This document shows positions 18,988 through 47,110 of a stretch of DNA of 48,255 nucleotides, piece by piece (within the stretch, counting starts at the first letter, position 1; every line of letters begins with the position of its first letter). The notes beneath the pieces were generated by a model that was not told the DNA's origin, ran no database searches, and saw only the letters and a list, made by a program, of their open reading frames with translations. A program made the translations under genes and the position numbers. The stretch lies in contig JALWEI010000010.1 in assembly GCA_027014125.1 (NCBI GenBank), forward strand, positions 1-48,255. The letters are read 5' to 3'. Origin of the DNA: Acidilobaceae archaeon (GTDB taxonomy: Archaea > Thermoproteota > Thermoprotei_A > Sulfolobales > Acidilobaceae).

Positions 18988-19060
18988 GGTATCACCACCA
19001 TGAACCCATTAGGGGCTTCAAAAAATCCATGAACACGGCTTCAAAACCCGTGTTGAAGCC
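18932..19060. repeat. Five copies of GGCTTCAA/TTGAAGCC
   Basis: TTGAAGCC is at 18932-18939, 18945-18952 and 19053-19060; the inverse GGCTTCAA is at 19014-19021 and 19037-19044. The last two sites form an inverted repeat with eight bases between them. The cluster covers the intN start and its promoter. A related GCTTCAAAA occurs in the integrase near the right attachment site (27687-27695), so these could be integrase arm sites, iterons or a repressor's sites. Confidence 0.6.
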
Positions 19061-24951: not shown

Positions 24952-24960
24952 GTGGTGTGT

Positions 24961-25170
24961 ATGAGTGTGGTTGGGTATTTCTGGCGGTGGGCAGGCTTCT
25001 GGGCTGGTTTCATATCTGGGTTCCTAGCCCACAGAATGTATTATAGCCTGGACCCGCCTTGGCTGCGGACAGTGCTAGCCGCTGGGATAATACTCATGTT
25101 TATTATTTCAGGTATTCCTCTAACCCGAGCCCGTAGAAAAGCAAAGTCAGGCCGAATAGGAATGTTATAA
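24961..25170 (+). CDS. Small two-helix membrane protein (69 aa)
   Basis: GGTGGTGTGT right before ATG 24961 fixes the start. Two membrane helices (YFWRWAGFWAGFISGFLA and TVLAAGIILMFIISGIPL) and a basic tail (RARRKAKSGR) are seen. Its end overlaps the opposite-strand gene by 68 bases. Function unknown. Confidence 0.5.
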   Translation: MSVVGYFWRWAGFWAGFISGFLAHRMYYSLDPPWLRTVLAAGIILMFIISGIPLTRARRKAKSGRIGML

Positions 25171-26839: not shown

Positions 26840-26959
26840 GTGGAGTGGTGGGAGTGGCTCTTCCTAACGGTAATCGTGGCGATAGCCTCTAGGGCAAACA
26901 TAACGATAATGGTTAGACGGCAGGAGTGCAGGCACAACCAGGCTATATGCTACCCCTAA
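26840..26959 (+). CDS. Very small membrane peptide (39 aa)
   Basis: GTG 26840 follows GGGGTGATACC, the same signal as for neighbouring genes, and the frame runs to TAA 26957-26959. The peptide WWEWLFLTVIVAIASRANI has one membrane helix, and the tail (RRQECRHNQAICYP) holds two cysteines. It closes the rightward operon and overlaps the end of the integrase gene by 4 bases tail-to-tail. Support is by signal and position only. Confidence 0.45.
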   Translation: MEWWEWLFLTVIVAIASRANITIMVRRQECRHNQAICYP

Positions 26960-29375: not shown

Positions 29376-29630
29376 CCCATCTAGGATACTAGCGCTGAAC
29401 CAAGCATGACAACGGCTACACTCAATAAATTCACTATATAAGCAACTTTTATAAGCCTAAACTCGTCTAACATGCTTCCTCTATATAATTATCACATCAT
29501 AGCCTTTATTTAAGATTTTTGCTAATTCTATAATACTAAATGTTTTACTTATTTGCTCATTATGTGCAGTGTGCCGCGTGAGACCAACTATTTAGGTAGA
29601 TTAGTTTTAGATAATCTGGGGGTTTTATTG
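29376..29630. promoter_or_regulatory. AT-rich intergenic region with leftward promoter
   Basis: CTATATAAGC (29434-29443) and CTTTTATAAGC (29445-29455) provide leftward TATA boxes for the stalk-protein gene. The rest, up to the tRNA-Gly fragment, is AT-rich with no frame; I see no RNA gene there. Confidence 0.4.
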
Positions 29631-29681
29631 TGGTGCGGCCGCCGGGATTTGAACCCGGGACCACCGGCTTGGAAGGCCGGC
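29631..29681 (-). repeat. 3' fragment of tRNA-Gly(TCC), attachment site of the large element
   Basis: Read on the minus strand, the sequence runs from anticodon stem CCGGC through loop CTTCCAA (anticodon TCC), stem GCCGG, a complete T-arm (GGTTCAAATCC), the 3' acceptor strand CGGCCGC, A and CCA. The matching 5' acceptor strand and D-arm are missing: past 29681 the sequence is unrelated. This is what integration into a tRNA 3' half leaves at the distal end. The intact tRNA-Gly should lie beyond the right edge of the window. Confidence 0.85.
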
Positions 29682-31735: not shown

Positions 31736-32317
31736 GTGGGACCCGTGGTACTGGGACTATTCAGGAGGAGGGGCAACCCCCCGGCTGCCGGGGCAAAGCC
31801 CATAGGTCCTAGGGGCAGGATGACCCCGGAAGGATACATACCAACACCAGAAGAGCTAGAAGCCGCCGAGCCTATACCCCCTATGGGGGAGTGGTGGGAT
31901 CCGAAGAGTGTAGGTATGAGCGAGGAGGAGGCTGGGTGGGTTCTCCTGGCTAGGGATGAGTGGAGGCCTAGGAGGAAGGAGGGGCTCAAGGGGAGGGCCC
32001 TGGCGGAGCCGGTGTACAGGCCTGGGTTCAAGATGCCCTTCCACGCTCTAGCCTTCGACACTAAGTCCGGGAGGATATACCTGCTAGACGGTACATCACA
32101 CGCTATGATATACGAAGCCACGGGAGATAAGACTGCCAGGGAGATCGTTGAGATGCTGATAGAGGAGGCTATACCAGCCCTACACGACGACGACCCCCTG
32201 AAGATAGCGTTCCTAAAGGAGGAGCCGGGCGAGGAGGATAAAAAAGAGATAGAGAGCTTCATAGCAGCCCTATACTTCCAGATGGCACTGCTACGCAGCA
32301 AAGGCCTACTCATATAA
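31736..32317 (+). CDS. Hypothetical protein of large element (193 aa)
   Basis: The N-terminal 50 residues are proline-rich and probably flexible (RRRGNPPAAGAKPIGPRG); part of this is encoded by a dyad repeat at 31773. The rest is a soluble alpha/beta domain (KMPFHALAFDTKSGRIYLLDGTSHAMIYEATGDKTAREIVEMLIEEAI). It converges with the VirB6-like gene by 12 bases. I recognise no family. Confidence 0.5.
   Translation: MGPVVLGLFRRRGNPPAAGAKPIGPRGRMTPEGYIPTPEELEAAEPIPPMGEWWDPKSVGMSEEEAGWVLLARDEWRPRRKEGLKGRALAEPVYRPGFKMPFHALAFDTKSGRIYLLDGTSHAMIYEATGDKTAREIVEMLIEEAIPALHDDDPLKIAFLKEEPGEEDKKEIESFIAALYFQMALLRSKGLLI
31773..31788 (+). repeat. Dyad repeat copy 2 (GCAACC-CCCC-GGCTGC), inside a gene
   Basis: One mismatch in the right arm, the same change as in copy 4. 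It is translated as GNPPAA. ATAGGTCCTAGG follows at 31802-31813, the companion motif. Confidence 0.7.
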
Positions 32318-34375
32318 CGCCCTACCACTAGCATGGGCCCTGCCCAGGTTTACCCTGCTGCTCATCCACTCCCAGGTGCGGCCAGCATAATGCCTAACCC
32401 TAGGCGCGGCCCATCTGGCTGCCTTGATCGTGTATTTTGCCGGGTAGTATACCCCGTACTTGCCTGTCCTCACCGTTGCCCTTACCGGGGTTACCCCCAG
32501 CTCTCTGGATAGGGTCTGGTCGAATTCTTGGGCTGTGCGCTTCAGGCGCTCCCCCAGGGCCAGGCCAGCCTTGGCTGCCCCCACCGCCGCGCGGCGCCTC
32601 AGACCGGGCTCGACCGTCTCGACCTCGCCCCTTGCCTCGGCTAGTACGTCCTTAACCGGCTCTGTTATTCTCCCTAGGCCCCTGGGCGGCTCTACTTCTT
32701 GGATTGTGGGCTTGCCTGCCGCTGGACCGGGCTGCGGTGGCGGGACTGGGGGCTGCGTCGCTACTGTCGGCTGCCGGGGCTGGTATACTGGGCTGGGGGC
32801 ATAGCCCACCACCTGCCCCGACATGGGGCGTTTGCCCGCCATGAGGAGGGCGCCCCCGCCCGCCGCCGCTGCTACCGTGGATATTGTGGGGGTTGGCGGG
32901 GCCCTGGCCAGGCTCCTTATGCCTCCCATAAGCCCTCCTAGGCCCATTTGGCTTGTGATCATGTTTGCTATCCACGGGGTGGCTGCTGCGAAGATTAGGG
33001 GTATGGCTATAGCTGCCACCACGCTCGTCCCCTCCGTCGTAGTAGTTAGGGTTAGGGCCATCTGGGAGATGAGGCCGCTCATCACCGAGGCTATGATGCT
33101 GAAGATGAAGAGGGCGGCTAGGAGCTGTAGTACTGCCTGAACCACGCCCCGGAAGCCTGGGACGAGCCAGGCAACCAGGAGTAGCGGGGAGCTGGCCACG
33201 ATGACGGCTGCCACCACCCACTTCAGGATGCCAACCAGCACCATGAATATGAGCATGACCACCAGCACCGCCGCCACGGTCCCGGCGGTGGGTGCTACCA
33301 GCCCCAGCGCACCCATAACCGCCCCGAGGCTAACCACCATAGCGTAAAGGGCGCCGAGCTGGCCGAGCTGGGCCATACTCAGGCTTATGGTGTTAAACGT
33401 CTCGGCCAGGAGGTTGTAGAGGTCAAGCAACACGTAGATCCCCACCAGGACGGCTATCATGTCCCGGAAGACCTCCAGCAGCGCCTGGCCTCCCCTCTCC
33501 CACTCCCAGAACGCGGTCCAGACCAGCCTAGCCAGGGAGGCGGCGGATATGAGTAGAAGGGCCCACATACTCGCCAGGCCATAGTACTTCTCCACAGCCG
33601 GGTAGTTCGAGACCGTGGGCATCGCCACATAGTAGTAGAAGGCGTAGCCAGCGTTCAAGCCGAGCCTCGCAAGAGCCTGAGCCATCAAATCCATAACCCC
33701 GGCGAAGGCGTCAGCCACCACCGGGCCTATCGCCTTCGCAGCCTTCTTAACACCCTTCTCCACAATGCCGCCCTCCTCGTCCAGCCCGGCTAGGAAGCTC
33801 TTCACCACCCCGGCGTAGGCGTACCAGGGCGCCGTGACGTTGACGAGGAAGCTCCTAGTCTCCGTGGCAACTGGGGTGTTAGGGGTCCCGGAGAGGCTGC
33901 TGTAGGTGTAGATCGTGATCGTGACCTGGTACAACCCCTCATCGTGGTACACGTGGCTTAGGCTGGCCGGCTCCCCGGGCCCAGTAGTAGTATACCCGGG
34001 TGGGGGCCAGCTGCTCGTGCTCCCATCACCCCAGTCAATCTCAACCCCATACCAGTCGTGAACCGGCAGTATGGGGACCACGGTAACCTCGACGGGGAAG
34101 TACCTGCTGGCGTGGAACGCTTCCCCACGGCTGGCATAGTAGTCTGCCGGGCTCACCACAAAGCTACTCTGAACTCCTAGGGCCTGCCCCCCGCCATACA
34201 ACCAGTAGATTATCCCATACCCGCCAGATGCAAACACTAGGAGGGCCACACCCCATAGGAGTGGAGCTCTAGGGTCCTGTCCTAACGCTAGTCTTATTGC
34301 TGCTACTAGCAGGAGGAAGACGCCCCACGCGGCGGCTATGAATAGCACTGTGCCTGCCAGGGCTTGCACAGTCAC
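32306..34375 (-). CDS. VirB6/CedA-like polytopic protein with PKD-like domain
   Basis: In the 689-residue protein, an N-terminal signal/membrane region (residues 1-50) leads to an outside PKD-like beta domain (EVTVVPILPVHDWYGVEIDWGDGS, then LSHVYHDEGLYQVTITIY). Then come about eight membrane helices (residues 260-480, e.g. GTVAAVLVVMLIFMVLVGIL) and a Pro/Gln-rich cytoplasmic tail that is basic at the end. Large polytopic proteins with this core form the inner-membrane channel (VirB6/TrbL; CedA in crenarchaea) of DNA-transfer machines. GGGAGGTGACT suggests GTG 34369 as the actual start. It is the last gene of a leftward operon with VirB2-, VirB3- and VirB4-like proteins. Confidence 0.65.
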   Translation of the reverse strand: MTVQALAGTVLFIAAAWGVFLLLVAAIRLALGQDPRAPLLWGVALLVFASGGYGIIYWLYGGGQALGVQSSFVVSPADYYASRGEAFHASRYFPVEVTVVPILPVHDWYGVEIDWGDGSTSSWPPPGYTTTGPGEPASLSHVYHDEGLYQVTITIYTYSSLSGTPNTPVATETRSFLVNVTAPWYAYAGVVKSFLAGLDEEGGIVEKGVKKAAKAIGPVVADAFAGVMDLMAQALARLGLNAGYAFYYYVAMPTVSNYPAVEKYYGLASMWALLLISAASLARLVWTAFWEWERGGQALLEVFRDMIAVLVGIYVLLDLYNLLAETFNTISLSMAQLGQLGALYAMVVSLGAVMGALGLVAPTAGTVAAVLVVMLIFMVLVGILKWVVAAVIVASSPLLLVAWLVPGFRGVVQAVLQLLAALFIFSIIASVMSGLISQMALTLTTTTEGTSVVAAIAIPLIFAAATPWIANMITSQMGLGGLMGGIRSLARAPPTPTISTVAAAAGGGALLMAGKRPMSGQVVGYAPSPVYQPRQPTVATQPPVPPPQPGPAAGKPTIQEVEPPRGLGRITEPVKDVLAEARGEVETVEPGLRRRAAVGAAKAGLALGERLKRTAQEFDQTLSRELGVTPVRATVRTGKYGVYYPAKYTIKAARWAAPRVRHYAGRTWEWMSSRVNLGRAHASGRALYE

Positions 34376-36376: not shown

Positions 36377-36443
36377 AGGTAGGACCTACCTAGGACCTGG
36401 CTACTCCCCCAGCAGGCCCCTGACTTCATTAAATTATTACTTA

Positions 36444-36498
36444 GAGTATCTCTAAACAATCATATTTAAATATGGTTGAGAACATACCCGGCACTTGG
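36444..36498 (+). promoter_or_regulatory. sRNA promoter block 1 (55 nt, shared)
   Basis: The block begins with GAGTATCTCTAAACAATC, has TATTTAAATATG as TATA box and ends GCACTTGG. It aligns without gaps over 55 bases with the blocks at 38519 and 46259. The TATA box puts the start of transcription at about the final CTTGG. Confidence 0.8.
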
Positions 36499-36527
36499 AG
36501 AAACCATGTCTGTAGAAGCCTGGAGAA

Positions 36528-36610
36528 GCGGCGGGGGATGATGACGCGCTCCAGCGCTGAGGGCCCACCGGCCGGCCCGATGGGCGGTCGGGTGCAATCT
36601 GACCCGCCGC
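36528..36610 (+). ncRNA. C/D-box sRNA 1
   Basis: The terminal stem GCGGCGGG (36528-36535) pairs with CCCGCCGC (36603-36610). Box C is ATGATGA (36538-36544), box D' CTGA (36557-36560), C' CGATGG (36578-36583) and box D CTGA (36599-36602). The guides are 12 bases before D' (CGCGCTCCAGCG) and 15 before D (GCGGTCGGGTGCAAT). A GC-rich spacer between D' and C' can form a small stem. Archaeal C/D RNAs direct 2'-O-methylation by fibrillarin; targets were not identified. Confidence 0.85.
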
Positions 36611-36647
36611 TCCATATTGATTATACAGTAGTGCGTGGCTATAACGC

Positions 36648-38444
36648 TTACCACTCTCCGGGCCGAGTGGTGAACTCCCGGAGCTCTGTCTTGCTGGGCT
36701 GTATGTAGACTGCCAGCCGCCAGTGGCCAGCACGCAAGACACCCTCCCCCGGCCTAGCTTCAATCAACCGCTGCTCCTCGCCCTCTGTAAGCATGTAGAT
36801 GTCCCTGATCGCCGCTATACTAGCCTCGTTGAGGCGTAGCAGCAGCACGGTGGCACTCTGTTCTAGTATAGTCCTCCCCGCCTCGGATCTAAGAACATCG
36901 GCAGGACGCTGGGTCAGGAATAGGAAGTTGACCCCATACTTCCTCCCGACCCTGCTGGTCTCCGCTAGCATGTGCATTAGGGCCGGATATTCGGCCCACA
37001 TCCACCCCTCGTCCACGACGAGTAGACTACGCTTTCTAAGCCTGGGCCGCAGGAGGCCCGCCAGTATCGCTCCTGCTAGGACCTTCTGTCTCTTGCCTCG
37101 GAGCTCCGAGAGGTCGAAGACCACGCTGGAGCCGTTGGAATCGAGTTCGGGCGGCCTCCCCTCGAATAATCCCATATCGGCCCGGGCCTCCCTCAACACC
37201 CCGCTGCTTATGAGGTCCTCCATGGAGTCAGCATCGTCTAGCGCCTCCATCAGCTGGAGCTTCTCCTCCCTACGCTGCAACCCATATATGTCGACTAGTA
37301 TCTCGTAGACTGTGCTGAAGTCGAGGAGCCCCTGCCTGTGGAGCCTGACGGGGTCTAGGCCGGCTGCATCGGGGTCTGCCCTGTAGACCTGGAACTCCGG
37401 AGAGAGGCGCTGGGCCACCTTGGCGTACTCCCCGCTAGGGTCTATGATGTAGACTGGGGATAGGAAGCGGCGCCACCACCTCCTGATATACACCTTCCCC
37501 GTCATTGACTTGCCGCTGCCAGTCTCTCCGATAACCACGAGATTGTAGTTTTGCATCTGGTAGGGGTTGTAGACTATCGGCGACCCAGTCCTAACATTGA
37601 AGCCAAGGAACAAGCCGTCGGGATGGCTTAGCTCCTCTGAAACAAATGTATAGAGAGCATGAGCAGCGGCGCTACTAGCCAGCACCCCATTGGCTAGCCA
37701 CATAGCAGTGGAGTCCAGCACGTAGAGGCGGGCCTGGCCCCTGAGCGGCGCCTGGTACCTCACACCGAGGCCGTCCAGGTAGCTCTCTAGGCTTCTGGCC
37801 TTCTCCTCCAGCTCCTCCAGGCCTTCAGCCTTGATTATAGCTAGGGCCTTGATCCGTAGCACCCTGTGGCCAGCTGAGGCCTCTGCTAGTAGAGCCTCCA
37901 GGGCCTCGGCTACCTCGGCCAGGTAGCCCTCCCTTGCGGCTATTGATAGGCGGCGCCACTTGGTCCTCAGCCTGTCCACTTTGCTGAAGGGCTCCAGTAG
38001 GATGTGGAGCTCGTCCCAGGGGGCCCCTGCCATGAAGGCTTCGGGTAGGCTCGGTGGTAGCCTGCCTAGGAGGTAGGTTCTAGCCCATACTCCGCCAGTT
38101 AGTAGGACTGCTTTTGGCTTCTCCTTCACTGGCCAGGGCCTCCCCAACGGCAGGGCCATCCTGGCCTGCAAGCCCGCTATAACCGGGTCGTCGTCCCTGT
38201 GCGCCTCGATATAGTAGCGTAGCGCCCTATACTCGGCTTGGAGGTCCTCCCACTCTATTACGCCCTCCTCCGCTACTGCGTGTATCCAGGCCTTGCGCCT
38301 GAGGCTTGCTATCCACCGTGTAAAACCAGAGACCAGCCTGTCCCTCTCGCTCTCGGGCATATCCTCGAAGGGCGTAACCTCAACCTGCCACCACAAGGTC
38401 CTAGGCGCAACCCCCCGGTTGCGCCCCTTTCTCCTCCCGAGCAC
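36648..38444 (-). CDS. VirB4/CedB-like conjugation ATPase
   Basis: The N-terminal half (residues 20-290) is the less conserved VirB4 domain, and the C-terminal half is a HerA/FtsK-type motor: Walker A GETGSGKS (306-313), VYIIDPSGEY after it, Walker B LLVVDEGWMW (474-483) and FLFLTQRPADVLRS as the sensor strand. This ATPase powers DNA transfer or pilus assembly in T4SS, including crenarchaeal Ced/Ted. The drawn start (38444) would translate a dyad repeat as NRGVA; TTG 38396, preceded by CTAGGACC, leaves the dyad in the leader and may be right. Confidence 0.85.
   Translation of the reverse strand: MLGRRKGRNRGVAPRTLWWQVEVTPFEDMPESERDRLVSGFTRWIASLRRKAWIHAVAEEGVIEWEDLQAEYRALRYYIEAHRDDDPVIAGLQARMALPLGRPWPVKEKPKAVLLTGGVWARTYLLGRLPPSLPEAFMAGAPWDELHILLEPFSKVDRLRTKWRRLSIAAREGYLAEVAEALEALLAEASAGHRVLRIKALAIIKAEGLEELEEKARSLESYLDGLGVRYQAPLRGQARLYVLDSTAMWLANGVLASSAAAHALYTFVSEELSHPDGLFLGFNVRTGSPIVYNPYQMQNYNLVVIGETGSGKSMTGKVYIRRWWRRFLSPVYIIDPSGEYAKVAQRLSPEFQVYRADPDAAGLDPVRLHRQGLLDFSTVYEILVDIYGLQRREEKLQLMEALDDADSMEDLISSGVLREARADMGLFEGRPPELDSNGSSVVFDLSELRGKRQKVLAGAILAGLLRPRLRKRSLLVVDEGWMWAEYPALMHMLAETSRVGRKYGVNFLFLTQRPADVLRSEAGRTILEQSATVLLLRLNEASIAAIRDIYMLTEGEEQRLIEARPGEGVLRAGHWRLAVYIQPSKTELREFTTRPGEW
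38407..38422 (+). repeat. Dyad repeat copy 6 (GCAACC-CCCC-GGTTGC)
   Basis: Perfect dyad at the 5' end of the virB4-like frame, with CTAGG directly before it. If the long start is used it encodes NRGVA. Confidence 0.85.
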
Positions 38445-38487
38445 GTCTAGACCCCACTACTATACCCCCGCCGGGGGACTCCCCAGG

Positions 38488-38503
38488 GCAACCGGGGAGT
38501 TGA
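38488..38503 (-). repeat. Dyad repeat copy 7 (degenerate, GCAACC-GGGG-AGTTGA)
   Basis: The left arm is intact, the right arm has two changes. It lies 15 bases before promoter block 2. CCGGGGGACTCCCC is next to it. Confidence 0.55.
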
Positions 38504-38518
38504 CGACACGATTACCTT

Positions 38519-38573
38519 GAATATCTCTAAACCATCAAACTTAAATACGACTGGGAGCATATCTAACACTTGG
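38519..38573 (+). promoter_or_regulatory. sRNA promoter block 2 (55 nt, shared)
   Basis: Starts GAATATCTCTAAACCATC, TATA box ACTTAAATACG, then GGGAGCATA and ends ACACTTGG. It aligns without gaps to the blocks of sRNA 1 and sRNA 3. Confidence 0.8.
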
Positions 38574-38602
38574 CTAATTGCAGGCGATAGGAGTAGGCGG
38601 GA

Positions 38603-38690
38603 GCGGCGGGGATGATGAACCACATCCGGGCTGAGGGCCTCGGGCCCTCCGGGGCCCGATGGCCTGCGGCTGGCACACTGACCCCGCCGC
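38603..38690 (+). ncRNA. C/D-box sRNA 2
   Basis: The stem GCGGCGGGG (38603-38611) pairs with CCCCGCCGC (38682-38690). Box C ATGATGA (38612-38618), D' CTGA (38631-38634), C' CGATGG (38657-38662), D CTGA (38678-38681). Guides are ACCACATCCGGG (12 bases) and CCTGCGGCTGGCACA (15 bases). The frame matches sRNA 1, including a GC-rich D'-C' hairpin (GGGCC/GGCCC), while the guides differ, as expected for a duplicated gene with a new target. It is antisense to the gap between virB3- and virB4-like genes. Confidence 0.85.
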
Positions 38691-38722
38691 CGATATTTAA
38701 CTAAAAAGACTTGAGGCTTAAT

Positions 38723-39304
38723 TTATATGACTCTTATAATCACGCGGCGGAGCTCCACGTTGCCGTGTCTCACGCTTAACTGGTGGACTCCCTTCGGCAG
38801 CTCTAATGATAACCTGTAGCGTCCATCCCCTGAGACCTCAACATCGTAGACTCTACCATCCACGATCACCAGCACCTCCTCTAGGGGCTCCATGGTGGCT
38901 GGGTCTAGGGCGTATCCCAGGAGCTCCACCCTGGCTACGCCTAGATCCCTGTCGGCGGTGAGAGTATAGTCCTCCGCTGCATCCTGCCTCTTCCCGGGCT
39001 TCTTCGGCTGCGATAGGAGTAGCAGCTGCGCCTCCGCTGAGAGGGGCCGGGGCTCCTGCCAGCCCAAGGCAATCAAGCCAGCTGCAGCTATGAGAGCTAT
39101 AAGGGTACCCAGGGTTACCGGGATGCCGCCAGTTGCGACAAAGAGCACTGGACCCTGAGGAGCTAGCGTGTATGCTATGGTTGCAGCGAGGCCCAGGGCT
39201 ATCATTCTACGCAGCGAGAGGTATAGGCTGCCGAAGCCGAGGGTGGGCTCGTCCAATATCGAGAATTCCGGTATTGTGTTTATGGAAAAAAGTCGTCTAG
39301 GCAT
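38723..39304 (-). CDS. VirB3-like membrane protein fused to a beta-sandwich domain
   Basis: The N-terminal half has the VirB3-type pattern: a polar head with LDEPTLGFGSLYLSLRRM, then membrane helices (IALGLAATIAYTLAP and GTLIALIAAAGLIALGW). The C-terminal 90 residues are a beta sandwich (VARVELLGYALDPATMEPLEEVLVIVDGRVYDVEVSGDGRYRLSLELPKG) like carboxypeptidase-regulatory or transthyretin-like folds, which plain VirB3/CedA2 proteins lack. It lies between the pilin and the ATPase genes, as virB3 does in T4SS operons. Confidence 0.6.
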   Translation of the reverse strand: MPRRLFSINTIPEFSILDEPTLGFGSLYLSLRRMIALGLAATIAYTLAPQGPVLFVATGGIPVTLGTLIALIAAAGLIALGWQEPRPLSAEAQLLLLSQPKKPGKRQDAAEDYTLTADRDLGVARVELLGYALDPATMEPLEEVLVIVDGRVYDVEVSGDGRYRLSLELPKGVHQLSVRHGNVELRRVIIRVI

Positions 39305-39319
39305 ATCTATTCCCCTAAG

Positions 39320-39646
39320 CTAGGGCGTGGTGAGCCACGCCACTATATCATTCGCAAAGAACGCTAGAACTAGTGCTACAACGCCGCCGACTAGCAATCT
39401 ACCTCCTCCTTCTTGGCCTGTCGCCATCTTGAAGCCGCCCCATAGTATAGCTGCAATCCCAGCAGCCGCCACAAGCAACATAATAAATCCTAGAACCTTA
39501 CCCAGTGTACTCTCCACTGCCGGTGGGGCCTGGGGGGTCACGGTTATGTCGACCTGCGCCGCGGCTAGGGTTGCAGCTAGGGGTGCGGCTAGCTGGAGCG
39601 CCAGGACAAGAACCGCTATCCAAATACGCAAGCCCACTTCCCTCAC
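39320..39646 (-). CDS. VirB2/CedA1/TedC-like pilin
   Basis: A signal peptide (IWIAVLVLALQLAAPLAATLAAAQ) is followed by a short polar segment and two membrane helices (VLGFIMLLVAAAGIAAILWGGFKMAT and LLVGGVVALVLAFFANDIVAWL) with a glycine-rich, positively charged loop (GQEGGGR) between. This is the plan of conjugative VirB2/TrbC pilins and crenarchaeal CedA1/TedC. GTG 39637 with GGTGAGGGAA upstream may be the true start. It is the first gene of the leftward transfer operon. Confidence 0.7.
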   Translation of the reverse strand: MREVGLRIWIAVLVLALQLAAPLAATLAAAQVDITVTPQAPPAVESTLGKVLGFIMLLVAAAGIAAILWGGFKMATGQEGGGRLLVGGVVALVLAFFANDIVAWLTTP

Positions 39647-39681
39647 CTCTCTACTAGTATAGAAGGGTTGGTGGACTACCC

Positions 39682-40731
39682 TCAGGGGCAGGAATAGAGG
39701 AGGGCTAGGGCCTCCCCGGAGGAGGGGAGGCGGGCCTCAACAGTGCCCCCCAGCCATACCCCGCTTCCCGCCCCTCCGGTTAGGAGGGGCACGCTCCTCT
39801 CTGATACCGTGGTGTTTAGGGGGGCCAGCCCCCAGGGAGGCTCGATTACATACACGGGCCGGGTCCCATAAAGCACGGCGTCAGGCTCTATTGGGGTGAA
39901 CCAGTCTCCCAGGACCACGGCCTTATACCCGCTGGGGATAGACAAGTTGGCAACCACGCTGGCCTCGGCCCTCAGCCTAAACCCTCCGTCGTAATCTATA
40001 GCGGCATATAGGCCTAGAGGTGGCTGTATAATGGTCGCGTTTATGGGGAGCGGGAACCCCTTGTTCGTATTGTTGTCCCACTGCTTCTCTTCAACCAAAC
40101 TATTAGCCTGGGCCCTGAACAGCCAGGCCCAATACGAGCCATACTCGAGGTACAAGGCCTGGGCGCCGGCGGAATAGGCGCCGGGGGCCGACGCGCTAAT
40201 CCATGACGAGTTAACGTAGTAGCAGCCCCGGAGCTCCGGGACCAGCGAGAGCCCCTCAAGGATAACCGTGATATTACTGGACAACGGCTCCCCTGGCAGG
40301 TCCAGGACCCCGTCGATCGTCAGCTCGGGGTCCCACCTGAACACGCTACCCCGCTGCGTCACAACTGCTATATCCAGCCTGCCGCTGCTCCAGTCGCCTA
40401 GCCTGAACATTGTCATGATGCCGGGGCTCAACAGCAACTGGGGGGTTGCATGGTACACCACCTGCCCGCTGCTCCTGTTGACCACGACAATATGTCGTAT
40501 AACTACATCAACGTAGCCCCGGTTAAGGACCTCAGCATAAACCCCTGTGCCATTGACTATCGGGGTGATCTTGAGGTCCTCCCTTGCCCGCTCCAGCCGC
40601 TCCTCAACTAGTCTGATCCGCTCGTCGAAAGCCTGCGTTACTATGAGAGCAAACAAGATCATCGCCGCTAGGGCTATAATAGTGCCTACAACTGGCGCGA
40701 CCCCCCTACGGTAGGTACTTGGCCGCCTCAA
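39682..40731 (-). CDS. Large type IV pilin-like secreted protein (349 aa)
   Basis: The N-terminus TYRRGVAPVVGTIIALAAMILFALIVTQAF is an archaeal class III signal peptide: basic residues and RRG, then a hydrophobic helix starting VAPVVGTI, as cleaved by PibD. A long beta-rich domain with several NxS/T sites follows (residues 50-345). At 349 residues it is much bigger than common pilins and may be a tip or adhesin. TTG 40731 overlaps the previous gene by 26 bases. Confidence 0.7.
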   Translation of the reverse strand: MRRPSTYRRGVAPVVGTIIALAAMILFALIVTQAFDERIRLVEERLERAREDLKITPIVNGTGVYAEVLNRGYVDVVIRHIVVVNRSSGQVVYHATPQLLLSPGIMTMFRLGDWSSGRLDIAVVTQRGSVFRWDPELTIDGVLDLPGEPLSSNITVILEGLSLVPELRGCYYVNSSWISASAPGAYSAGAQALYLEYGSYWAWLFRAQANSLVEEKQWDNNTNKGFPLPINATIIQPPLGLYAAIDYDGGFRLRAEASVVANLSIPSGYKAVVLGDWFTPIEPDAVLYGTRPVYVIEPPWGLAPLNTTVSERSVPLLTGGAGSGVWLGGTVEARLPSSGEALALLYSCP

Positions 40732-40978
40732 GGTCCTCCATCACCACTAGATCCCCTGCACAGTAGACCCCGTAGGAGGTGTTGATGCTCACGGCGTCAA
40801 CACAACCCTTAACAACATAGTATATACTATGTGTCTGATTCAAGGCTGCAACGCGCTCAAGCACCACTGTGTCATGAGTCTTGAGAGCCTCAGCCCCCTG
40901 GAGCTGGTGAGGAAGAAAGGTTGCGAGGGCTACAGTCATTGCTATGAATACAGCCGCCACGACTACATGGCTTGGCAT
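40706..40978 (-). CDS. Small pilin-like secreted protein (90 aa)
   Basis: An N-terminal hydrophobic helix (VVVAAVFIAMTVALATFL) is followed by about 65 residues with two cysteines (VKGCVDAV, VYCAGDL). There are no basic residues just before the helix, so it is not a standard pilin; it may be a FlaG/FlaF-like minor component. It lies between two pilin genes and overlaps the downstream one by 26 bases. Confidence 0.5.
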   Translation of the reverse strand: MPSHVVVAAVFIAMTVALATFLPHQLQGAEALKTHDTVVLERVAALNQTHSIYYVVKGCVDAVSINTSYGVYCAGDLVVMEDLEAAKYLP

Positions 40979-40985
40979 CGCCAGG

Positions 40986-41468
40986 TCACACTATGAACTC
41001 TACACTCTTCTCCCTAACCTCGCCGTGGTCGATGTAGACTATTGTGAGTACGTGCCTGCCGGGCTGGAGGTTCAGGCTGCTAACGTCTATAGTATCAACG
41101 ATGCTCCCACCTGGGGCGAGCGTCGTGCCGTTCCATGGTATGCTAGCGGCTATGCTTGTGTTGTCTATCCTAACGTCTATGATCTGGGCGTTGCTGTCGC
41201 CGGCATTCCTCACCTCTATATTGAGGAGGAGCCCGTTCTGCGGGTACACCGGGTCGACTACCACGCTGAGCCTAGCACTGCTAAAGCTCTGCATGACCCC
41301 ATTGGCGTTGTTGTGGACGAATGCGACACCCACGAGTGCAACAGCTATGACTGCCACTACGGCTATGATATCACTCAGAGCCTTCCTAGATCGTAGCCTA
41401 GGCCCCACGCCTATCACCTGATTATAATAGGCGTGGGAGGGGACGCGGGAAACCTGCTTGTGTCGCAC
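40986..41468 (-). CDS. Type IV pilin (160 aa)
   Basis: RLRSRKALSDIIAVVAVIAVALVGVAFVH is a class III signal peptide with cleavage expected around KAL|SDII, followed by a single Ig-like beta domain (SARLSVVVDPVYPQNGLLLNIEVRNAG ... GRHVLTIVYIDHGEVREKSVEFIV). This is a normal archaeal pilin. GTG 41468 lies about 25 bases from a TATA box TAATAAACC (41487-41495, minus strand), so it is leaderless. It heads the pilin cluster. Confidence 0.75.
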   Translation of the reverse strand: MRHKQVSRVPSHAYYNQVIGVGPRLRSRKALSDIIAVVAVIAVALVGVAFVHNNANGVMQSFSSARLSVVVDPVYPQNGLLLNIEVRNAGDSNAQIIDVRIDNTSIAASIPWNGTTLAPGGSIVDTIDVSSLNLQPGRHVLTIVYIDHGEVREKSVEFIV

Positions 41469-41669
41469 CCTAGCCTGGATAGTAAGGTTTATTAGGGTGC
41501 AGGTGTCGATGGCCGTGGCGCATATACGCCAGGGTCGTGCGCTGCGTGCATAGACACTCTCCCCTTAATAAACCTTTCCCTGTTGGATGGAGTATACAGT
41601 AGACGGTAAGGTTTATTAACCCGAGATTCTCAACTTCAGCGGCATCCATCGACCATCGATATGCGTCGT
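41469..41669. other. Intergenic region with three AATAAACCTT boxes and a folded segment
   Basis: AAGGTTTATTA is at 41485-41495 and 41610-41620, and the inverse AATAAACCTT at 41567-41576. The first (read leftward) is the TATA box of the pilin gene. Between the first two, 41508-41555, GTGTC pairs with GACAC and TGGCG-CATATA-CGCCA makes a hairpin, so a small RNA is possible. GTGTCGATGG resembles the companion word of the dyad repeats. Confidence 0.45.
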
Positions 41670-43763
41670 CTAGAATAGGAGGGCGGCGAGCAACGGGGCA
41701 GTGGCCAGGGCCAGGAGGCTGGAGGCCACGACGCTGGCAACCCTAAGCGTGTTCCTGTACGTGTAGTCGTAGAACCTTGCAGCCATAACCCCCAGGATCA
41801 GGCTAGAGGCGACTATAACGATCCTGCTGGCCTCATACACCGGCTCCACGCCCCCGGCCTGGAGGCCTATCCCAGATACAAGGACCTGGTACCGTAATGC
41901 AAGGCTGTATAGGACCTCTACTAGGACTGCGGTGAGCCAGGGCACGGCGTAGGCTAGGAGCAGGACGAGGCGGCCAGCCTCACGGGCCCTCCTCAACACC
42001 GACATGTACTCCGATACATGCCTGTAGAGCAGCTCCACATCCCTTACACTTGCAGAGCCACTATCCAGGAGCAGTTGTGTAAGGGCGAAGACGCGGCGGA
42101 GGAGCCCCGAGACGGCCTGCCTCGACTCGAACCCGCCCCCTGCTAACAGCCTCCGCCGGGCCTCCTCTACCCTGGCACATGTTAGGTCCTCCCGGCGCCT
42201 GGCCTGAGCAACCCCCCGGTTGCACCCAAGCGCCTCCACGAGGGGCCTGCCAGACCTCATACCCTCCATAACACCCCGGAGCCACTGCTCCAAGCCACGC
42301 TCCTCCCCGGCTGCTATAGCAGCAATCCTCCTATAGTGCAGTCCATAGCCAGCGAGGCCCGCTATGATAACAATGCCCAGGCCCAGCCAGGCCTCTAAGC
42401 CGAGGCCTAGGCTTGCCAGTAGTGCTATGCTCCCAGCTAGGAGCCCCCACGCCAGTCCTCTCCTGTCATCAACCCTATGCTCCACCGCTGGCAGGCGGGA
42501 GCCCGCCAGGAGGACGAGTACGCCCAGGACCGGTATGCTATACACTAGAAGCATCACCAGACTACTGCTGGGCACGAAGAGGGCTGCCGCAAGGAGCACG
42601 AGCACACCCAGCCCAGCAACCAGGAGAACCACCTCCGCGAGTATCAGGCCCTCCCTTGAAGCCCTTTCAAGCCTCGCACTGTATTCTTCTAGAAGTGTTC
42701 TAGCCTTGTCGTACAGATACTCCTTGACTGCACCACCTGAAGCCATAACGTTTGCCAGGCCCGTGGCGAACAACCGGAGCTCCCGGCTAGGATGCCTCTC
42801 AGCATAGGCTGCTAAACCCTCTACCGGGCCTCTAGTCTCTATACTAGCGTCAAGCTCCCCCGCCTCTTTCCCTAGACCACCCATACTCCTGGCGAGCATT
42901 CTCACAGCGTGGCCTATGGGTAAGGGCCAGGACAACGCTGCAGCTAGACTTAGCCAATGCAGGTTCTCGTCAACTAGCCTCCGCCGTGTATTCACCTTAT
43001 AATATAATAATAAGGTATAGCCGGCCAGCGGTGCTGGAACAGCCAAGAGCAGGGCCAGCGCCGGCGTTGAACCCAGCAGCAGGTACGCTACCCCAGCCAG
43101 GGGCAGCATGGCGGTGCCGAGCCCTACCAGGGCCCCAGCCAGGGCCTCAGTCTCCGCCCTAGTCCTCCCGGTGGAGGCTAGGACCCCTAGCTTATGGAGC
43201 CTAAGCCGCCTAGCCATTAGACTGCCTGCCACCTGTAATGGCTTCCTGCCTGCGACTCGTAGCCGGGATAGCCTAACATACCATGGTATCGCTGCTACTA
43301 GTTTAGGCGACTCTCTGGATAAAGTGAGGCTCACCGGCGGTTCCAGTAAGGCCCCCAACAGTAGCACACCGCCTACAAGACCTGCCACGATCATGATAAT
43401 GGTCGCGGCTAGGAACAGTGGGGTAGGCGCCAGGGGCGAGGCTAGTAGGTATACCAGTGATGCTGCAGCCGAGGCCAGGTATGGTGTAGCTAGGAGGAGT
43501 GCCTCGGGGTTCGCTACGTTGATGCGCCATAGCTTAACCTTGACCGGCAGCGACCTGTATCGGAGTTCAAGCCTAGACAGAAGCCAGGATCCCATTAGGA
43601 AGTCTACCATGAGAAACCCGCCGATCATATACACTAGGCTGCCGGGCAACAGGGCCCTGGCGCTACCAGGACCTACCAGGTCGGCTACTGAACGGATACT
43701 ATAGAGGCCAACCCCGAGGAAGAACACTCCAGCTAAGAGCTCCGCGAGCCTCGAGGTCCTCAT
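41670..43763 (-). CDS. TadC/FlaJ-like pilus assembly membrane protein, duplicated
   Basis: The 697-residue protein consists of two similar halves, each with a T2SF-like cytoplasmic helical domain between membrane helices. In the first, LHWLSLAAALSWPLPIGHAVRMLARSMGGLGKE is the conserved part; in the second, LEQWLRGVMEGMRSGRPLVEALGCNRGVA. This is the platform protein that works with the GspE-like ATPase encoded just upstream to polymerise pilins. A dyad repeat (copy 8) sits in the second domain and encodes NRGVA. Archaeal FlaJ/TadC proteins are commonly double like this. Confidence 0.75.
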   Translation of the reverse strand: MRTSRLAELLAGVFFLGVGLYSIRSVADLVGPGSARALLPGSLVYMIGGFLMVDFLMGSWLLSRLELRYRSLPVKVKLWRINVANPEALLLATPYLASAAASLVYLLASPLAPTPLFLAATIIMIVAGLVGGVLLLGALLEPPVSLTLSRESPKLVAAIPWYVRLSRLRVAGRKPLQVAGSLMARRLRLHKLGVLASTGRTRAETEALAGALVGLGTAMLPLAGVAYLLLGSTPALALLLAVPAPLAGYTLLLYYKVNTRRRLVDENLHWLSLAAALSWPLPIGHAVRMLARSMGGLGKEAGELDASIETRGPVEGLAAYAERHPSRELRLFATGLANVMASGGAVKEYLYDKARTLLEEYSARLERASREGLILAEVVLLVAGLGVLVLLAAALFVPSSSLVMLLVYSIPVLGVLVLLAGSRLPAVEHRVDDRRGLAWGLLAGSIALLASLGLGLEAWLGLGIVIIAGLAGYGLHYRRIAAIAAGEERGLEQWLRGVMEGMRSGRPLVEALGCNRGVAQARRREDLTCARVEEARRRLLAGGGFESRQAVSGLLRRVFALTQLLLDSGSASVRDVELLYRHVSEYMSVLRRAREAGRLVLLLAYAVPWLTAVLVEVLYSLALRYQVLVSGIGLQAGGVEPVYEASRIVIVASSLILGVMAARFYDYTYRNTLRVASVVASSLLALATAPLLAALLF
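42208..42223 (+). repeat. Dyad repeat copy 8 (GCAACC-CCCC-GGTTGC), inside tadC-like gene
   Basis: A perfect dyad deep within the coding sequence, read on the minus strand as CNRGVA without breaking the frame. TTAGGTCCT is 15 bases away (42182-42190). Confidence 0.85.
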
Positions 43764-43807
43764 CCTAGCGCACCCTGTTTAGAAGATACACCCGGGTGGA
43801 CCACTGC

Positions 43808-43823
43808 GCAACCGGGGGGTTGC
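43808..43823 (-). repeat. Dyad repeat copy 9 (GCAACC-GGGG-GGTTGC)
   Basis: Perfect dyad in the 61-base gap between the GspE-like stop and the TadC-like start; GCTAGGACCTTGCTAGG follows and encodes the last residues of the ATPase. Confidence 0.85.
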
Positions 43824-43824
43824 G

Positions 43825-45126
43825 CTAGGACCTTGCTAGGAGCCTGCCCTGATCAATGATGATCCTATCAAGCTCATTCCGGCTTACGCCTAGACCATGC
43901 GCCAGCCTATCCCTAAGCCTGGCTGCCTTTTCAAGCCCGACAACATGGCTATCATCCTCTCTTCTCCAATAAGCTATCCTAGCCCAGCCACTATCCTCCC
44001 TGCTGTACACCTCCACGACCCTCCTCCCAAGCCCCGGGATTATGCCAGTTACAACTACAAGCCACACAAGGTCTAGCAGGTCCTCGCCTATACCTAGTAT
44101 AGAGAGGCGCCGCATTAACTCCTCTAGACCGCCAGCGTGGAACGTCGCCAGAGAGCCACTACCCAGCGCGGCGGCCTCAAAGATATACCTGACCTCCTCC
44201 CCTCTAGCTTCAGCAACAGCGACATAGTCGCTCCTCATCCTAAGCGCTGCCTTGAGGAGCTGCCTGAAGCCTATCCTAGCCCTCTCGGCCAGGGGGTCCA
44301 GGACCTGGGGCTCCCTAGGGTACAAGGCCACCCAGTTGCTATGCTTCAGCCGGAGCTCCGGGACCTCCTCCACCGTAACAATCCTCCTCTCCCCGGGGAC
44401 CCGGTCTAGTAGGGCTCCCATGAGCGTTGTCTTCCCCGAGCCCTGCGGGCCAACAATTAGTACCATACCCTTAGCCAACACGGCGATCTCCAATAGAGCT
44501 GCCAAGTCTCTCGACATCATTCTCCTGGCCACTAGGTCCTCAAGAGTCAGGGGTTCCTCCGGGAACTTCCTTATCGTTATAGTAGTGTTTTTGGAAACCC
44601 TGGCAGCCGCTAGTGCTACTGTTACACGGTGTCCTTCCGGCAGCCTAAACTCCTGGAGAGGGAACGCGGGGGATATGGATGACCCGGAGCGGTATGCTAG
44701 CCTGTAGGCTAGATCCTCAGCCTCTCCCGGCCTGAACCGTAGGTTTGTCTGGAACCAGCCCTCGTAGTCCCGGTGGACTACTTTTACCGTGGTGCCGTCG
44801 ACTGCTACCTCCTCCAGGCCTGGGTCCCGGATTAGGGGGTCTAGCTTGCCGTACCCTTGTAGGTCCCTGGTTAGGTAGTAGTCAATCGAGTGCCTGCACC
44901 TGTCGTACAGGTCGGCTAAGCCTAGGACCTCGGCTGCTATCCACCTATCCTCGGGTTTTCCGGGGTCGGCTTCGATGTGGACGGTGAAGTACTCCTTGAG
45001 GTAGGATAGTACCGGGCTGCACTCTTCGGGCATGACGGGCTCGTATATGTTGTAGTACTTGTACAGTTCCGCTTCTACTATCTGTACCTCCACAGGGCCT
45101 ACCGTGTACTGGGCTAGGACCTTCAC
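43825..45126 (-). CDS. GspE/TadA/VirB11-like secretion ATPase
   Basis: The N-terminal domain (1-190) ends with ISPAFPLQEFRLPEGHRVTVALA, typical of archaeal pilus ATPases. Walker A is GPQGSGKT (226-233), the Asp-box TVEEVPEL (251-258), then FRQLLKAALRMRSDYVAVAEARG with the conserved arginines, and LATFHAG as the His box. It drives pilus assembly or secretion with the TadC-like protein downstream. A small winged-helix gene overlaps its start by 4 bases. Length of 433 is normal for the archaeal type. Confidence 0.85.
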   Translation of the reverse strand: MKVLAQYTVGPVEVQIVEAELYKYYNIYEPVMPEECSPVLSYLKEYFTVHIEADPGKPEDRWIAAEVLGLADLYDRCRHSIDYYLTRDLQGYGKLDPLIRDPGLEEVAVDGTTVKVVHRDYEGWFQTNLRFRPGEAEDLAYRLAYRSGSSISPAFPLQEFRLPEGHRVTVALAAARVSKNTTITIRKFPEEPLTLEDLVARRMMSRDLAALLEIAVLAKGMVLIVGPQGSGKTTLMGALLDRVPGERRIVTVEEVPELRLKHSNWVALYPREPQVLDPLAERARIGFRQLLKAALRMRSDYVAVAEARGEEVRYIFEAAALGSGSLATFHAGGLEELMRRLSILGIGEDLLDLVWLVVVTGIIPGLGRRVVEVYSREDSGWARIAYWRREDDSHVVGLEKAARLRDRLAHGLGVSRNELDRIIIDQGRLLARS

Positions 45127-45410
45127 GGCTGGGCACCTGCTAGGTCCTCGGGCTCGACTGCAAGCCTGTACAGGTAGCCCTTCCTCCCCTTCCTCCTCTC
45201 CACAACACCCATCACGTGGAGCCTTGAGAGTATGGCGGCGCTACTATGCGGCCTCACATAGAGCACCCCCGCCAGGTCGCGGGCCGTGAACCACTCCCTG
45301 CCGAAGCTCCTCTTAATCAAGGACGCGAGGTGTATAGCGTCGTACTCGACCAGGACCCTCACCCTCCACACCCCCTCAACACCACTACTATACAGCCTAC
45401 GGTAGACCAT
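45123..45410 (-). CDS. Winged-helix protein (95 aa)
   Basis: GAGGTGT directly before ATG 45410 fixes the start and excludes a longer frame. The domain EYDAIHLASLIKRSFGREWFTARDLAGVLYVRPHSSAAILSRLHVMGVVERRKGRKGYLYRLA is a winged helix with recognition helix PHSSAAILSRLHVMG. It overlaps the ATPase gene by 4 bases and the upstream gene by 14, so it is co-expressed with the pilus machine and may regulate it. Confidence 0.65.
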   Translation of the reverse strand: MVYRRLYSSGVEGVWRVRVLVEYDAIHLASLIKRSFGREWFTARDLAGVLYVRPHSSAAILSRLHVMGVVERRKGRKGYLYRLAVEPEDLAGAQP

Positions 45411-45975
45411 ACACCTCCACCCCCACGGCCCAGCCTGGAGGCCTAACAGTACGGCCCCACACAAGCCGCTCCCAAGCCACCCACGGCCCATCCCGCACGA
45501 CGAGTATTGCAGGGGCCCGGGGCAGCAGGATCCTACCCTGGCTAGTCCACTTGTAGCCAGCTGGCTCGACTAGGTGTATGAGCCTGTGGAACCCTGGCAT
45601 GTGGCCTAGGGCCTCGGTGAAGCGTTGGAGGGCTGTGTACGCCGTCTGCTTTGGAACCCCCATGCCCCTGTAGATCTCCTTCCAGGATGTGCTGGAGCCT
45701 AGGGTCCTGAGGGTGTAGTATAGTAGGGCTGCTGCCTGGGCCCTCGGCTCTCCTCCCCTCCCGCCCGCACTCCTAACTATCTCCACTGCTGCGCTGTAGC
45801 TCGCCAGCTTCTCTATTAGTAGGCGAGGGGCTGGGCCGTGGTGTGTTATGTAGTAGTCTAGGGCTAGGGTCGCCGCCAGCTCCCCAGGCTTGTGGTAGTA
45901 CAGGCTCCTCGAGTATCCCCTCACCCTGGGTTTTGGTGGGGTGAAGCTTGGCACAATTATTGTCCTGATGGCCAT
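45397..45975 (-). CDS. Hypothetical protein with HTH-like segment (192 aa)
   Basis: The protein is largely helical. The segment SWKEIYRGMGVPKQTAYTALQRFTEALGHMPGF looks like a helix-turn-helix, preceded by AAALLYYTLRTLGSSTS. The C-terminal 60 residues are strands (GYKWTSQGRILLPRAPAILVVRDG). It is first in the operon with the pilus ATPase. TATA-like CATATAAC (46014-46021, minus) lies upstream. It could be a regulator or a replication protein; I cannot decide. Confidence 0.5.
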   Translation of the reverse strand: MAIRTIIVPSFTPPKPRVRGYSRSLYYHKPGELAATLALDYYITHHGPAPRLLIEKLASYSAAVEIVRSAGGRGGEPRAQAAALLYYTLRTLGSSTSWKEIYRGMGVPKQTAYTALQRFTEALGHMPGFHRLIHLVEPAGYKWTSQGRILLPRAPAILVVRDGPWVAWERLVWGRTVRPPGWAVGVEVYGLP

Positions 45976-46059
45976 GCGCCACGCCCATAACCAACCATAG
46001 ATGCTGAAGCATAGTTATATGGCTTTAACCACATAAACAAGCCAGGGGTAATATACTTT

Positions 46060-46079
46060 TGTCAACCAACCGGTTGACA
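46060..46079. promoter_or_regulatory. Palindrome TGTCAACC-AACC-GGTTGACA
   Basis: Two perfect eight-base arms around a four-base centre: the same geometry as the dyad repeats but with GTCAACC in place of GCAACC. It overlaps TATA-like words in both directions (ATATATAAG at 46079-46087, GTATATTAC leftward at 46048-46056), so it looks like an operator for the gene ending at 45397. Confidence 0.6.
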
Positions 46080-46095
46080 TATATAAGCTTTCCCC

Positions 46096-46111
46096 GCAAC
46101 CCCCCGGTTGC
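46096..46111 (+). repeat. Dyad repeat copy 10 (GCAACC-CCCC-GGTTGC)
   Basis: Perfect dyad followed by ATGTCGACGTGGCGGG, close to the 3' side of sRNA 3 and 16 bases from the related TGTCAACC palindrome. Confidence 0.85.
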
Positions 46112-46163
46112 ATGTCGACGTGGCGGGAATAGTATTAAGCCCCGGCGCCCTATAGTATGACGT

Positions 46164-46237
46164 GGGGCGGCGGGGTCAGCGCATCGAGCGTACATCACGC
46201 GTCAGACCGTGCCGCAGTCATCATCCCCCGCCGCCCC
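46164..46237 (-). ncRNA. C/D-box sRNA 3
   Basis: On the minus strand: a perfect 12-bp terminal stem (46226-46237 with 46164-46175), box C ATGATGA (46218-46224), guide CTGCGGCACGGT, D' CTGA (46202-46205), three-base spacer, C' GTGATGT (46192-46198), guide ACGCTCGATGCG and D CTGA (46176-46179). Both guides are exactly 12 bases, the classic archaeal spacing. It is the most regular of the four, and its promoter block is at 46259-46313. Confidence 0.9.
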
Positions 46238-46258
46238 CTTCTCTTAGCACTGGGTTAT

Positions 46259-46313
46259 CCAAGTGCCTGTTATGCTCCTGCATGTATTTAAACACGATGG
46301 TCTATAGATATTC
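46259..46313 (-). promoter_or_regulatory. sRNA promoter block 3 (55 nt, shared)
   Basis: Read leftward: GAATATCTATAGACCATC, TATA box GTTTAAATAC, GGAGCATA and final GCACTTGG. It aligns base for base, with no gap, to blocks 1 and 2 in spite of lying 8-10 kb away and on the other strand. Confidence 0.8.
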
Positions 46314-46340
46314 CAAGTAATCACTAGATAGGTCCTAGGC

Positions 46341-46894: not shown

Positions 46895-46925
46895 TATAAC
46901 CACCCCCATACATATAGCAATAGTG

Positions 46926-47002
46926 GGGCGGGTCAGCGGGTCGCATCGCGCCCATGCGGCGTGGGCTGCCGTCGCCTACGGGCTCGCACATCACTCCCGC
47001 CC
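46926..47002 (-). ncRNA. C/D-box-like sRNA 4
   Basis: On the minus strand: stem GGGCGGG/CCCGCCC (7 bp), box C GTGATGT (46988-46994), box D CTGA (46933-46936) with CGCGATGCGACCCG before it as guide. The internal D'/C' pair is not clear; instead GCCCA-TGGGC closes an inner hairpin. Leftward TATA box ACTTATTAG (47028-47036) fits. Its promoter is unlike the shared 55-base block. Confidence 0.6.
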
Positions 47003-47110
47003 TACTACAGTACGATAAACGTTCGACCCTAATAAGTCTTACCCACACCTAGACACGTCGACACCCAGCAGGAGAGTCCACGCGGGCCCGCTTCCTAACG
47101 GTGCCCAGGA

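Follow-up and report, generated by a model that had tools for sequence, protein, structure and literature searches.

Why a conjugative-type element should carry guide RNA genes is the question raised by contig JALWEI010000010.1 of an Acidilobaceae archaeon (assembly GCA_027014125.1, positions 1 to 48,255 of the forward strand; this whole stretch of 48,255 nucleotides (nt) is called the window), in which three C/D box small RNA (sRNA) genes, named sA, sB and sC, were found on such an element. The preferred answer, to which a probability of about 0.6 is given, is that mobile elements carry promoter-driven, guide-swapping C/D sRNAs that use the methylation ribonucleoprotein (RNP) of the host, partly on 16S ribosomal RNA (rRNA). 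The loci appear to belong to a family of C/D sRNAs found on conjugative plasmids and in integrated elements throughout the Sulfolobales (the order taken broadly). RNA architecture, shared promoter, linkage to elements, conservation of the scaffold, covariation of the stem and turnover of the guides are visible in the sequence; transcription, assembly of the RNP, methylation and a benefit for element maintenance or for the ribosomes of carriers are what we infer.

A preliminary description of the window had called C/D sRNA genes at sA (box C from 36538, + strand), sB (38612, +) and sC (46224, −), and all three were found to be canonical in architecture: box C ATGATGA, D' guide of 12 nt, CTGA, variable part, D guide, CTGA and a G+C-rich closing stem of the GCGGCGGGG/CCCCGCCGC type or longer; all are intergenic. 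sA occupies 36528–36610 (+), with box C at 36538–36544, D' guide CGCGCTCCAGCG at 36545–36556, box D' at 36557–36560, a D'-C' hairpin, D guide GTCGGGTGCAAT at 36587–36598, box D at 36599–36602 and the closing stem. sB occupies 38603–38690 (+), with box C at 38612–38618, D' guide ACCACATCCGGG at 38619–38630, box D' at 38631–38634, a D guide ending in GCGGCTGGCACA (38666–38677) that is complementary to the 530 loop of 16S rRNA, box D at 38678–38681 and the stem GCGGCGGGG/CCCCGCCGC. sC occupies 46165–46236 (−), with box C at 46224–46218, D' guide CTGCGGCACGGT at 46217–46206, box D' at 46205–46202, box C' GTGATGT at 46198–46192, D guide ACGCTCGATGCG at 46191–46180, box D at 46179–46176 and the stem GGGCGGCGGGG/CCCCGCCGCCC. 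Boxes C (RTGATGA), D', C' and D (CTGA) follow in order; sC has a canonical C' (GTGATGT), sA and sB a degenerate one. The D' guide is exactly 12 nt long in sA, sB and sC, in the RNA of a second element of the same genome (C33) and in three RNAs (G035a–c) of G035, a sister genome of the same genus; it has 11 nt in G035e. The D guide has 12 nt in sC, and 12 or 15 in sA and sB, by where C' is placed.

A search for this architecture with a stem of at least 7 pairs gave exactly three matches in the window and none in 20 Markov-shuffled windows; the architecture is far beyond chance. In an Rfam scan the gathering cut-offs of the C/D families snoPyro_CD, sR28 and sR10 were reached by no window RNA: sC scored 33.5 bits with snoPyro_CD (E 6e-4; cut-off 45) and 22.5 bits with sR28 (cut-off 39), and sB 18.6 bits with sR10 (cut-off 45). 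A weak fourth C/D-like candidate lies at 46919–47007 (−; GTGATGT, degenerate D' GCGA, CTGA and a good stem AGTAGGGCGGG/CCCGCCCCACT); it scored 24 bits (E 0.019) in one covariance search and E 0.24 with the model R2 (see below), and is not counted as established.

Each gene is preceded by a promoter block. The 55-base blocks of the preliminary description were recovered at 36444–36498, 38519–38573 and 46259–46313 (minus strand), as the cores of slightly longer regions at 36438–36502 (+, sA; supported by genome-wide search and by alignment with five other copies), 38513–38577 (+, sB) and 46255–46319 (−, sC; core 46313–46259). Aligned without gaps, they agree at 42/55 (A–B), 39/55 (A–C) and 40/55 (B–C) positions, 35 of the 55 being identical in all three; the runner-up 55-mer elsewhere in the window gave only 27–30 identities. 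With a 65-base consensus as query, the whole 1.82-Mb genome returned three places only (E 4e-16, 4e-16 and 2e-13; next E 0.36). The amplified, jointly promoted set proposed earlier is thus real, with three genes and one block type unique to them genome-wide. The TTAAATA motif noted earlier stands at a common offset (36466–36472, 38541–38547 and 46291–46285), and box C begins 40 (sA), 39 (sB) and 35 (sC) bases after the block end, as claimed.

The block consists of a B recognition element (BRE) and TATA box preceded directly by a dyad, TTAGA-N5-TCTAA. The dyad is perfect before sA (TTAGA-GTATC-TCTAA, 36441–36455, +, immediately 5' of BRE/TATA), imperfect before sB (38516–38530) and degenerate before sC (46316–46302). 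Three extra copies of the block, all 5' of sRNAs, were found in G035, two of them on one contig and 2.3 kb apart; GATTAYTTAGAATATCTCTAAACCATC, TTTAAATA and CACTTGG are common to the six aligned copies, and the dyad is perfect in three (sA, G035b and G035c) and imperfect in the other three. No further match to the dyad together with the rest of the block was obtained anywhere in the window. The earlier suggestion that the upstream part is a regulator site looks right from this dyad, a plausible candidate operator. From the TATA spacing, transcription would start near CACTTGG, so that a leader of about 40 nt would need trimming; expression from own shared promoters is indicated as far as the sequence can tell. 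A near-palindrome, GCAACCGGGGGGTTGC, was found in about a dozen window copies, mostly between genes of the conjugative element (30861, 34462, 35771, 36355, 38405, 38482, 42206, 43802, 46094, 46335 and others); three copies sit shortly 5' of the sRNA promoters, and a regulator or a partition protein may bind these copies.

Comparison of sA, C33 and G035a gave 82–98% identity outside the D' guide and 42–50% within it. The D' guide ACCACATCCGGG of sB recurs in G035 at the sA site (GCCACATCCGGG), and with the low identity of D' guides this points to replacement or exchange of guides inside a conserved scaffold. The sB site of G035 is occupied by an sC-type RNA, and sC itself has an ortholog there (contig C72) with one guide changed. 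Loss of boxes C and D in related elements, which the preliminary description had named as evidence against its view, was not seen; boxes are kept and guides vary. The closing stem, which adjoins boxes C and D, is paired in 93.9% of cells, with changes on both sides in 9 of 10 pairs; its covariation score of 0.470 (0.113 shuffled, at most 0.146 slid) was obtained on an alignment fitted to the stem tested, which favours the stem. In the sister element of G035 the sA-site copy (G035a; contig C154, 877–969 of the extracted locus) has lost about 100 bases with the promoter block and has box C ATGACGA; since promoter and box C are affected, this copy is probably decaying.

The position is kept as well as the scaffold. 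sA-type RNAs converge with the 3' end of a VirB4 gene in the window, in C33, in G035 (C154) and in the distant family f10 (G210, contig C11), these three being the syntenic relatives of sA; the gap is about 30–50 nt (32–38 nt in the window, about 49 nt in G210). A covariance model built from 12 RNAs of the window family with no Sulfolobus sequence included (R1) matched 33 genomes of the order out of 211 searched and, at E ≤ 0.03, 11 of 16 Sulfolobus/Acidianus conjugative plasmids (pSOG1, pSOG2, pNOB8, pB12E5 with three matches, pARN4, pYN01, pKEF9, pAH1, pHVE14, pTC and pRT2; range 1e-7 to 0.03, nine below 1e-3), these E-values, as all from the covariance models, being rough. Conversely, a model of Sulfolobus plasmid RNAs alone (R2) recovered sC (E 2e-12), sA (2.5e-5) and sB (2e-3). 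Five Sulfolobales viruses (176 kb) gave zero R1 matches at E ≤ 1; exact patterns gave in viral collections no match, or chance matches in coding sequence without box D or stem; and about 35 kb around the VirB4 gene of a Thermococcus plasmid gave no R2 match. Nine plasmids share a locus that is conserved along 200 bases and has no annotated gene in eight of them; in an alignment of eight (seven rows compared, pARN3 left out) identity was 100% for boxes C, D' and D, 85% for promoter and leader, 57% for the D' guide and 46% for the D guide. Several chromosomal matches in Sulfolobaceae adjoin remnants of plasmid integrases or other plasmid genes. The window set is thus one case of a wider pattern, unforeseen by the preliminary description: an RNA family common on known Sulfolobus conjugative plasmids.

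Further RNA loci were noted. Another C/D-like class occurs at 24949–25024 of the pYN01 locus, 10081–10156 of pAH1 and 17475–17539 of pBEU9E1; the pYN01 and pAH1 copies lie immediately 5' of a TraG-like gene on the same strand, and from this position the class may act in cis. Tandem C/D RNA pairs within about 240 bases were found in pRT2 (24852–25074) and pTC (19005–19243), one RNA of each pair having the upstream motif AAAATAAAAACRGAAA plus TATA common to other plasmid families. Genomes G165 (2701–3053) and G166 (5005–5355) contain oppositely oriented C/D RNA pairs about 180 bases apart, each less than 1 kb from a tRNA-Glu gene. A tRNA gene was found in the neighbourhood of 7 of 29 family loci and 1 of 28 control loci (one-sided p = 0.03), which is only suggestive, because archaeal C/D genes can adjoin tRNA genes anyway.

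Guides were scored against 16S and 23S rRNA of relatives, the assembly of the window genome being without rRNA genes; the fifth base before box D or D' was taken as the methylation position, and shuffled guides and reversed rRNA were used as controls. A chromosomal control RNA of the window genome (contig C22) matched 16S and 23S rRNA at about the 5% level, and no reversed-rRNA decoy reached p ≤ 0.05. The D' guide of pKEF9 matched 16S rRNA at CCCGUCGCUCC in 11/11 positions (p = 0.005), and D guides of relatives of the pKEF9 RNA (TTGTTACG) matched GUCGUAACAAG; these sites lie on opposite strands of the decoding helix, so that both guides of this RNA type would point to one site (the match of pKEF9's own D guide there is weak). 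The D' guide shared by pNOB8, pB12E5 and pSOG (GCACGACACGAG) matched 16S rRNA at CUCGUGUUGUGA (p = 0.005). The D guide class GGYTGACACR, to which sB and G035e belong, matched the 530 loop at GGUGUCAGCCGC (p = 0.012 for sB, 0.022 for G035e). In E. coli numbering we take the sites to be the 530 loop, the U1498 and U1406 sides of helix 44, and CUCGUG near 1070. The earlier proposal that the element acts on host RNA is thereby borne out in part: sB D (p = 0.012), the one window guide of six at single-guide significance, and the strong decoding-site matches in related plasmids speak for it, and the other five window guides do not.

The proposed mechanism runs as follows. The shared promoter (BRE/TATA and upstream dyad, presumably regulator-bound) would make a transcript with a short leader; host L7Ae, Nop5 and fibrillarin would bind the C/D and C'/D' kink-turns (K-turns), and processing would leave an RNA of 70–85 nt. 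In members with an identifiable target, one guide would be anchored on a conserved site of the 16S decoding region, at which it would bring about 2'-O-methylation or act as an RNA chaperone; its partner guide would change fast between elements by replacement in the conserved scaffold, so that elements differ in their marks. The activity that we consider most likely is guidance of the host's methylation RNP to 16S rRNA. Should the RNAs work in this way, a plasmid would change the decoding-site modification of its host's ribosomes by means of a gene some 80 bases long, without any protein, and C/D guides would have a possible route by which to spread and change between archaea; the plasmid RNAs are open to direct study in cultivable Sulfolobus strains with and without plasmid. 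A stronger version, held only tentatively, is that rapidly re-targeted guides rewrite decoding-centre 2'-O-methylation of the host (the variable guides acting on other RNAs) for the element's benefit; carriers might then be protected, the host made dependent on the element, or competing elements excluded, for example.

Several points count against the preferred reading. The genome of the window, a metagenome assembly, contains no rRNA genes of its own. Only 2 of 14 window-type guides and 2 of 32 guides from Sulfolobus (4 of 46 overall) reached p ≤ 0.05, the Fisher-combined p being 0.09 and 0.07, respectively; enrichment of rRNA targets is weak overall, and the majority of guides, among them all but one of the six window guides, are without a convincing rRNA target. 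The sB match itself has a G–U pair at methylation position 5 and a mismatch at position 1. Some members in the host's family lie at chromosomal-looking places (near rps19, near CopA), and membership of the family is thus not limited strictly to elements. The roughness of the covariance-model E-values and the fitting of the covariation alignment, given above, are to be reckoned on the same side.

The orphan guides are also what would be expected if host C/D sRNAs had been captured as passengers, duplicating and drifting without benefit to the element, their unselected guides free to vary. The copy G035a, without promoter and with its mutated box C, and the related RNAs at chromosomal-looking places fit such a view, as does the fast guide evolution known for archaeal C/D RNAs (PMC7994747). 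Yet across plasmids boxes (100%) and promoter (85%) are conserved while the guides differ, the closing stem covaries, the RNAs are on most conjugative plasmids examined and in none of the five viruses, and the position beside VirB4 is kept across two families; capture without function is regarded as unlikely. A housekeeping-only role is weakened by the plasmid linkage, though a chromosomal position is indeed seen for some members. Those variable guides that have no rRNA target could instead pair with mRNAs of their own or competing elements, by antisense action or mRNA methylation, and so control conjugation or exclude rivals. In keeping with this, the promoter is shared and possibly regulated, and the D' guide of C33 matches 12/12 positions on the sense strand of a gene of the rival element (32306–34375), about 42 nt past its start. 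The element's own mRNAs, put forward earlier as possible targets, did not hold up: two perfect 12-mers among 11 guides do not exceed chance expectation (p of 0.07 and 0.03 from shuffles), the sA D match at 23772 was rejected as probably antisense, opposite the more likely gene, and plasmid mRNAs showed no enrichment of guide targets. Regulation of this kind is judged improbable.

Action in cis was also considered; in this case the RNAs would not be free guides but K-turn hairpins of untranslated regions, binding L7Ae or terminating the transcription of conjugation genes. sA lies about 32 nt from the VirB4 3' end, the pYN01/pAH1 class stands directly 5' of a TraG-like gene on the same strand, and L7Ae-based regulation has been proposed for archaea (PMC5539422). 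Against this stand the own promoters pointing in the RNA direction, the orientation of sA and sB opposite to that of their neighbouring genes, the presence of two K-turns with exact 12-nt guide spacing, and the location of several plasmid copies within long intergenic regions; cis action is taken to be very improbable.

With archaeal C/D box sRNAs (Sulfolobus sR, Pyrobaculum, Pyrococcus; snoPyro_CD, RF00095) the window RNAs share boxes C/D' and C'/D, 12-nt guides, closing stem and dual guides, and a few guides of their family also have predicted targets in 16S helix 18 and the decoding centre, both dense regions of predicted methylation according to Dennis et al. 2015 (PMC4644070). They differ in being grouped on conjugative elements and in having shared promoters of their own, in scoring below the Rfam cut-offs, in their unusually long G+C-rich closing stems and in the D'-C' hairpin of sA and sB. 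Breuer et al. 2021 (PMC7994747) reported a TATA-like motif in about 20% of archaeal C/D genes and accelerated evolution of guides, and noted at the end of their review that mobile features of archaeal C/D genes still await discovery. Sulfolobus conjugative plasmids (pNOB8, pKEF9, pSOG, pARN, pAH1, pTC) likewise have a VirB4/TrbE-like ATPase, a tyrosine integrase and C/D sRNA genes of the same family; the window element, in contrast, is integrated, resides in another family and has a VirB2-like pilin and VirB11, and the plasmid RNAs have another promoter sequence and closing stem and are unannotated in the plasmid records.

The nearest analogies appear to be TIGR-Tas and a snoRNA of Epstein-Barr virus. 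TIGR-Tas (PMC12045711) also has box C/D-flanked dual guides on mobile elements, whereas the window RNAs are separate single genes 2–8 kb apart without a tandem array, apparently dependent on host Nop5; identity with TIGR-Tas was rejected, since no array was seen and the scanned element proteins contain neither a Nop nor a fibrillarin nor an IS110 domain. Epstein-Barr virus v-snoRNA1 (PMC2718842) is likewise a C/D RNA encoded by a selfish replicon and using host machinery, but it is a single eukaryotic viral copy, while the RNAs described here appear to form a guide-swapping family that recurs, in several copies, in conjugative elements of archaea. No report of C/D RNAs on conjugative plasmids was found in the open-access literature, and the paper on the pTC1 genome is silent on RNA genes. 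In the present analysis archaeal C/D guide RNA genes recur as cargo of conjugative elements, pNOB8, pKEF9 and pAH1 among them.

The conjugative-type element of the preliminary description was confirmed by VirB4/HerA, VirB11-like and VirB2-like proteins encoded between 28 and 46 kb; it is known from a metagenome assembly, and its conjugative nature is read from its genes. These were: VirB4/HerA-like conjugation ATPase, 36648–38444 (−; Pfam DUF87 3e-10, AAA_10 3e-8; relatives in 43 of 214 genomes); VirB11-like type II/IV secretion ATPase, 43825–45126 (−; T2SSE 2e-30); T2SSF-like membrane protein, 41670–43763 (−; T2SSF 3e-5, slightly below cut-off); VirB2/TrbC-like pilin, 39320–39646 (−; TrbC 2e-5, slightly below cut-off); and archaeal tyrosine integrase, 26956–28017 (−; Phage_integr_3 5e-26), across a tRNA-Leu(TAG) att site. 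VirB4-type and VirB11-type ATPases, pilin and integrase, the genes looked for in a Sulfolobales conjugative or integrative element, are thus all present, the integrase at a junction of two elements. The tRNA-Leu(TAG) genes at 18675–18762 and 27754–27813 point the same way and are identical over a 3' part of 60 bases, and the integrase open reading frame spans the second; two elements integrated in tandem, the first of about 9 kb, with a hybrid integrase at the junction, would fit. A 3' fragment of tRNA-Gly lies within the element at 29629–29681, in orientation opposite to the intron-containing tRNA-Gly gene at 1166–1271, and matches the tRNA-Gly close to a related element in genome G040. The second, divergent element of the window genome (C33) has a VirB4 54% identical to that of the window and an sRNA at the corresponding place; a possible second C/D RNA was seen on it at 4907–5013 of the extracted locus, with a D'-C' hairpin and a perfect 10-bp stem (E 0.011 with R1, 9e-4 with R2).

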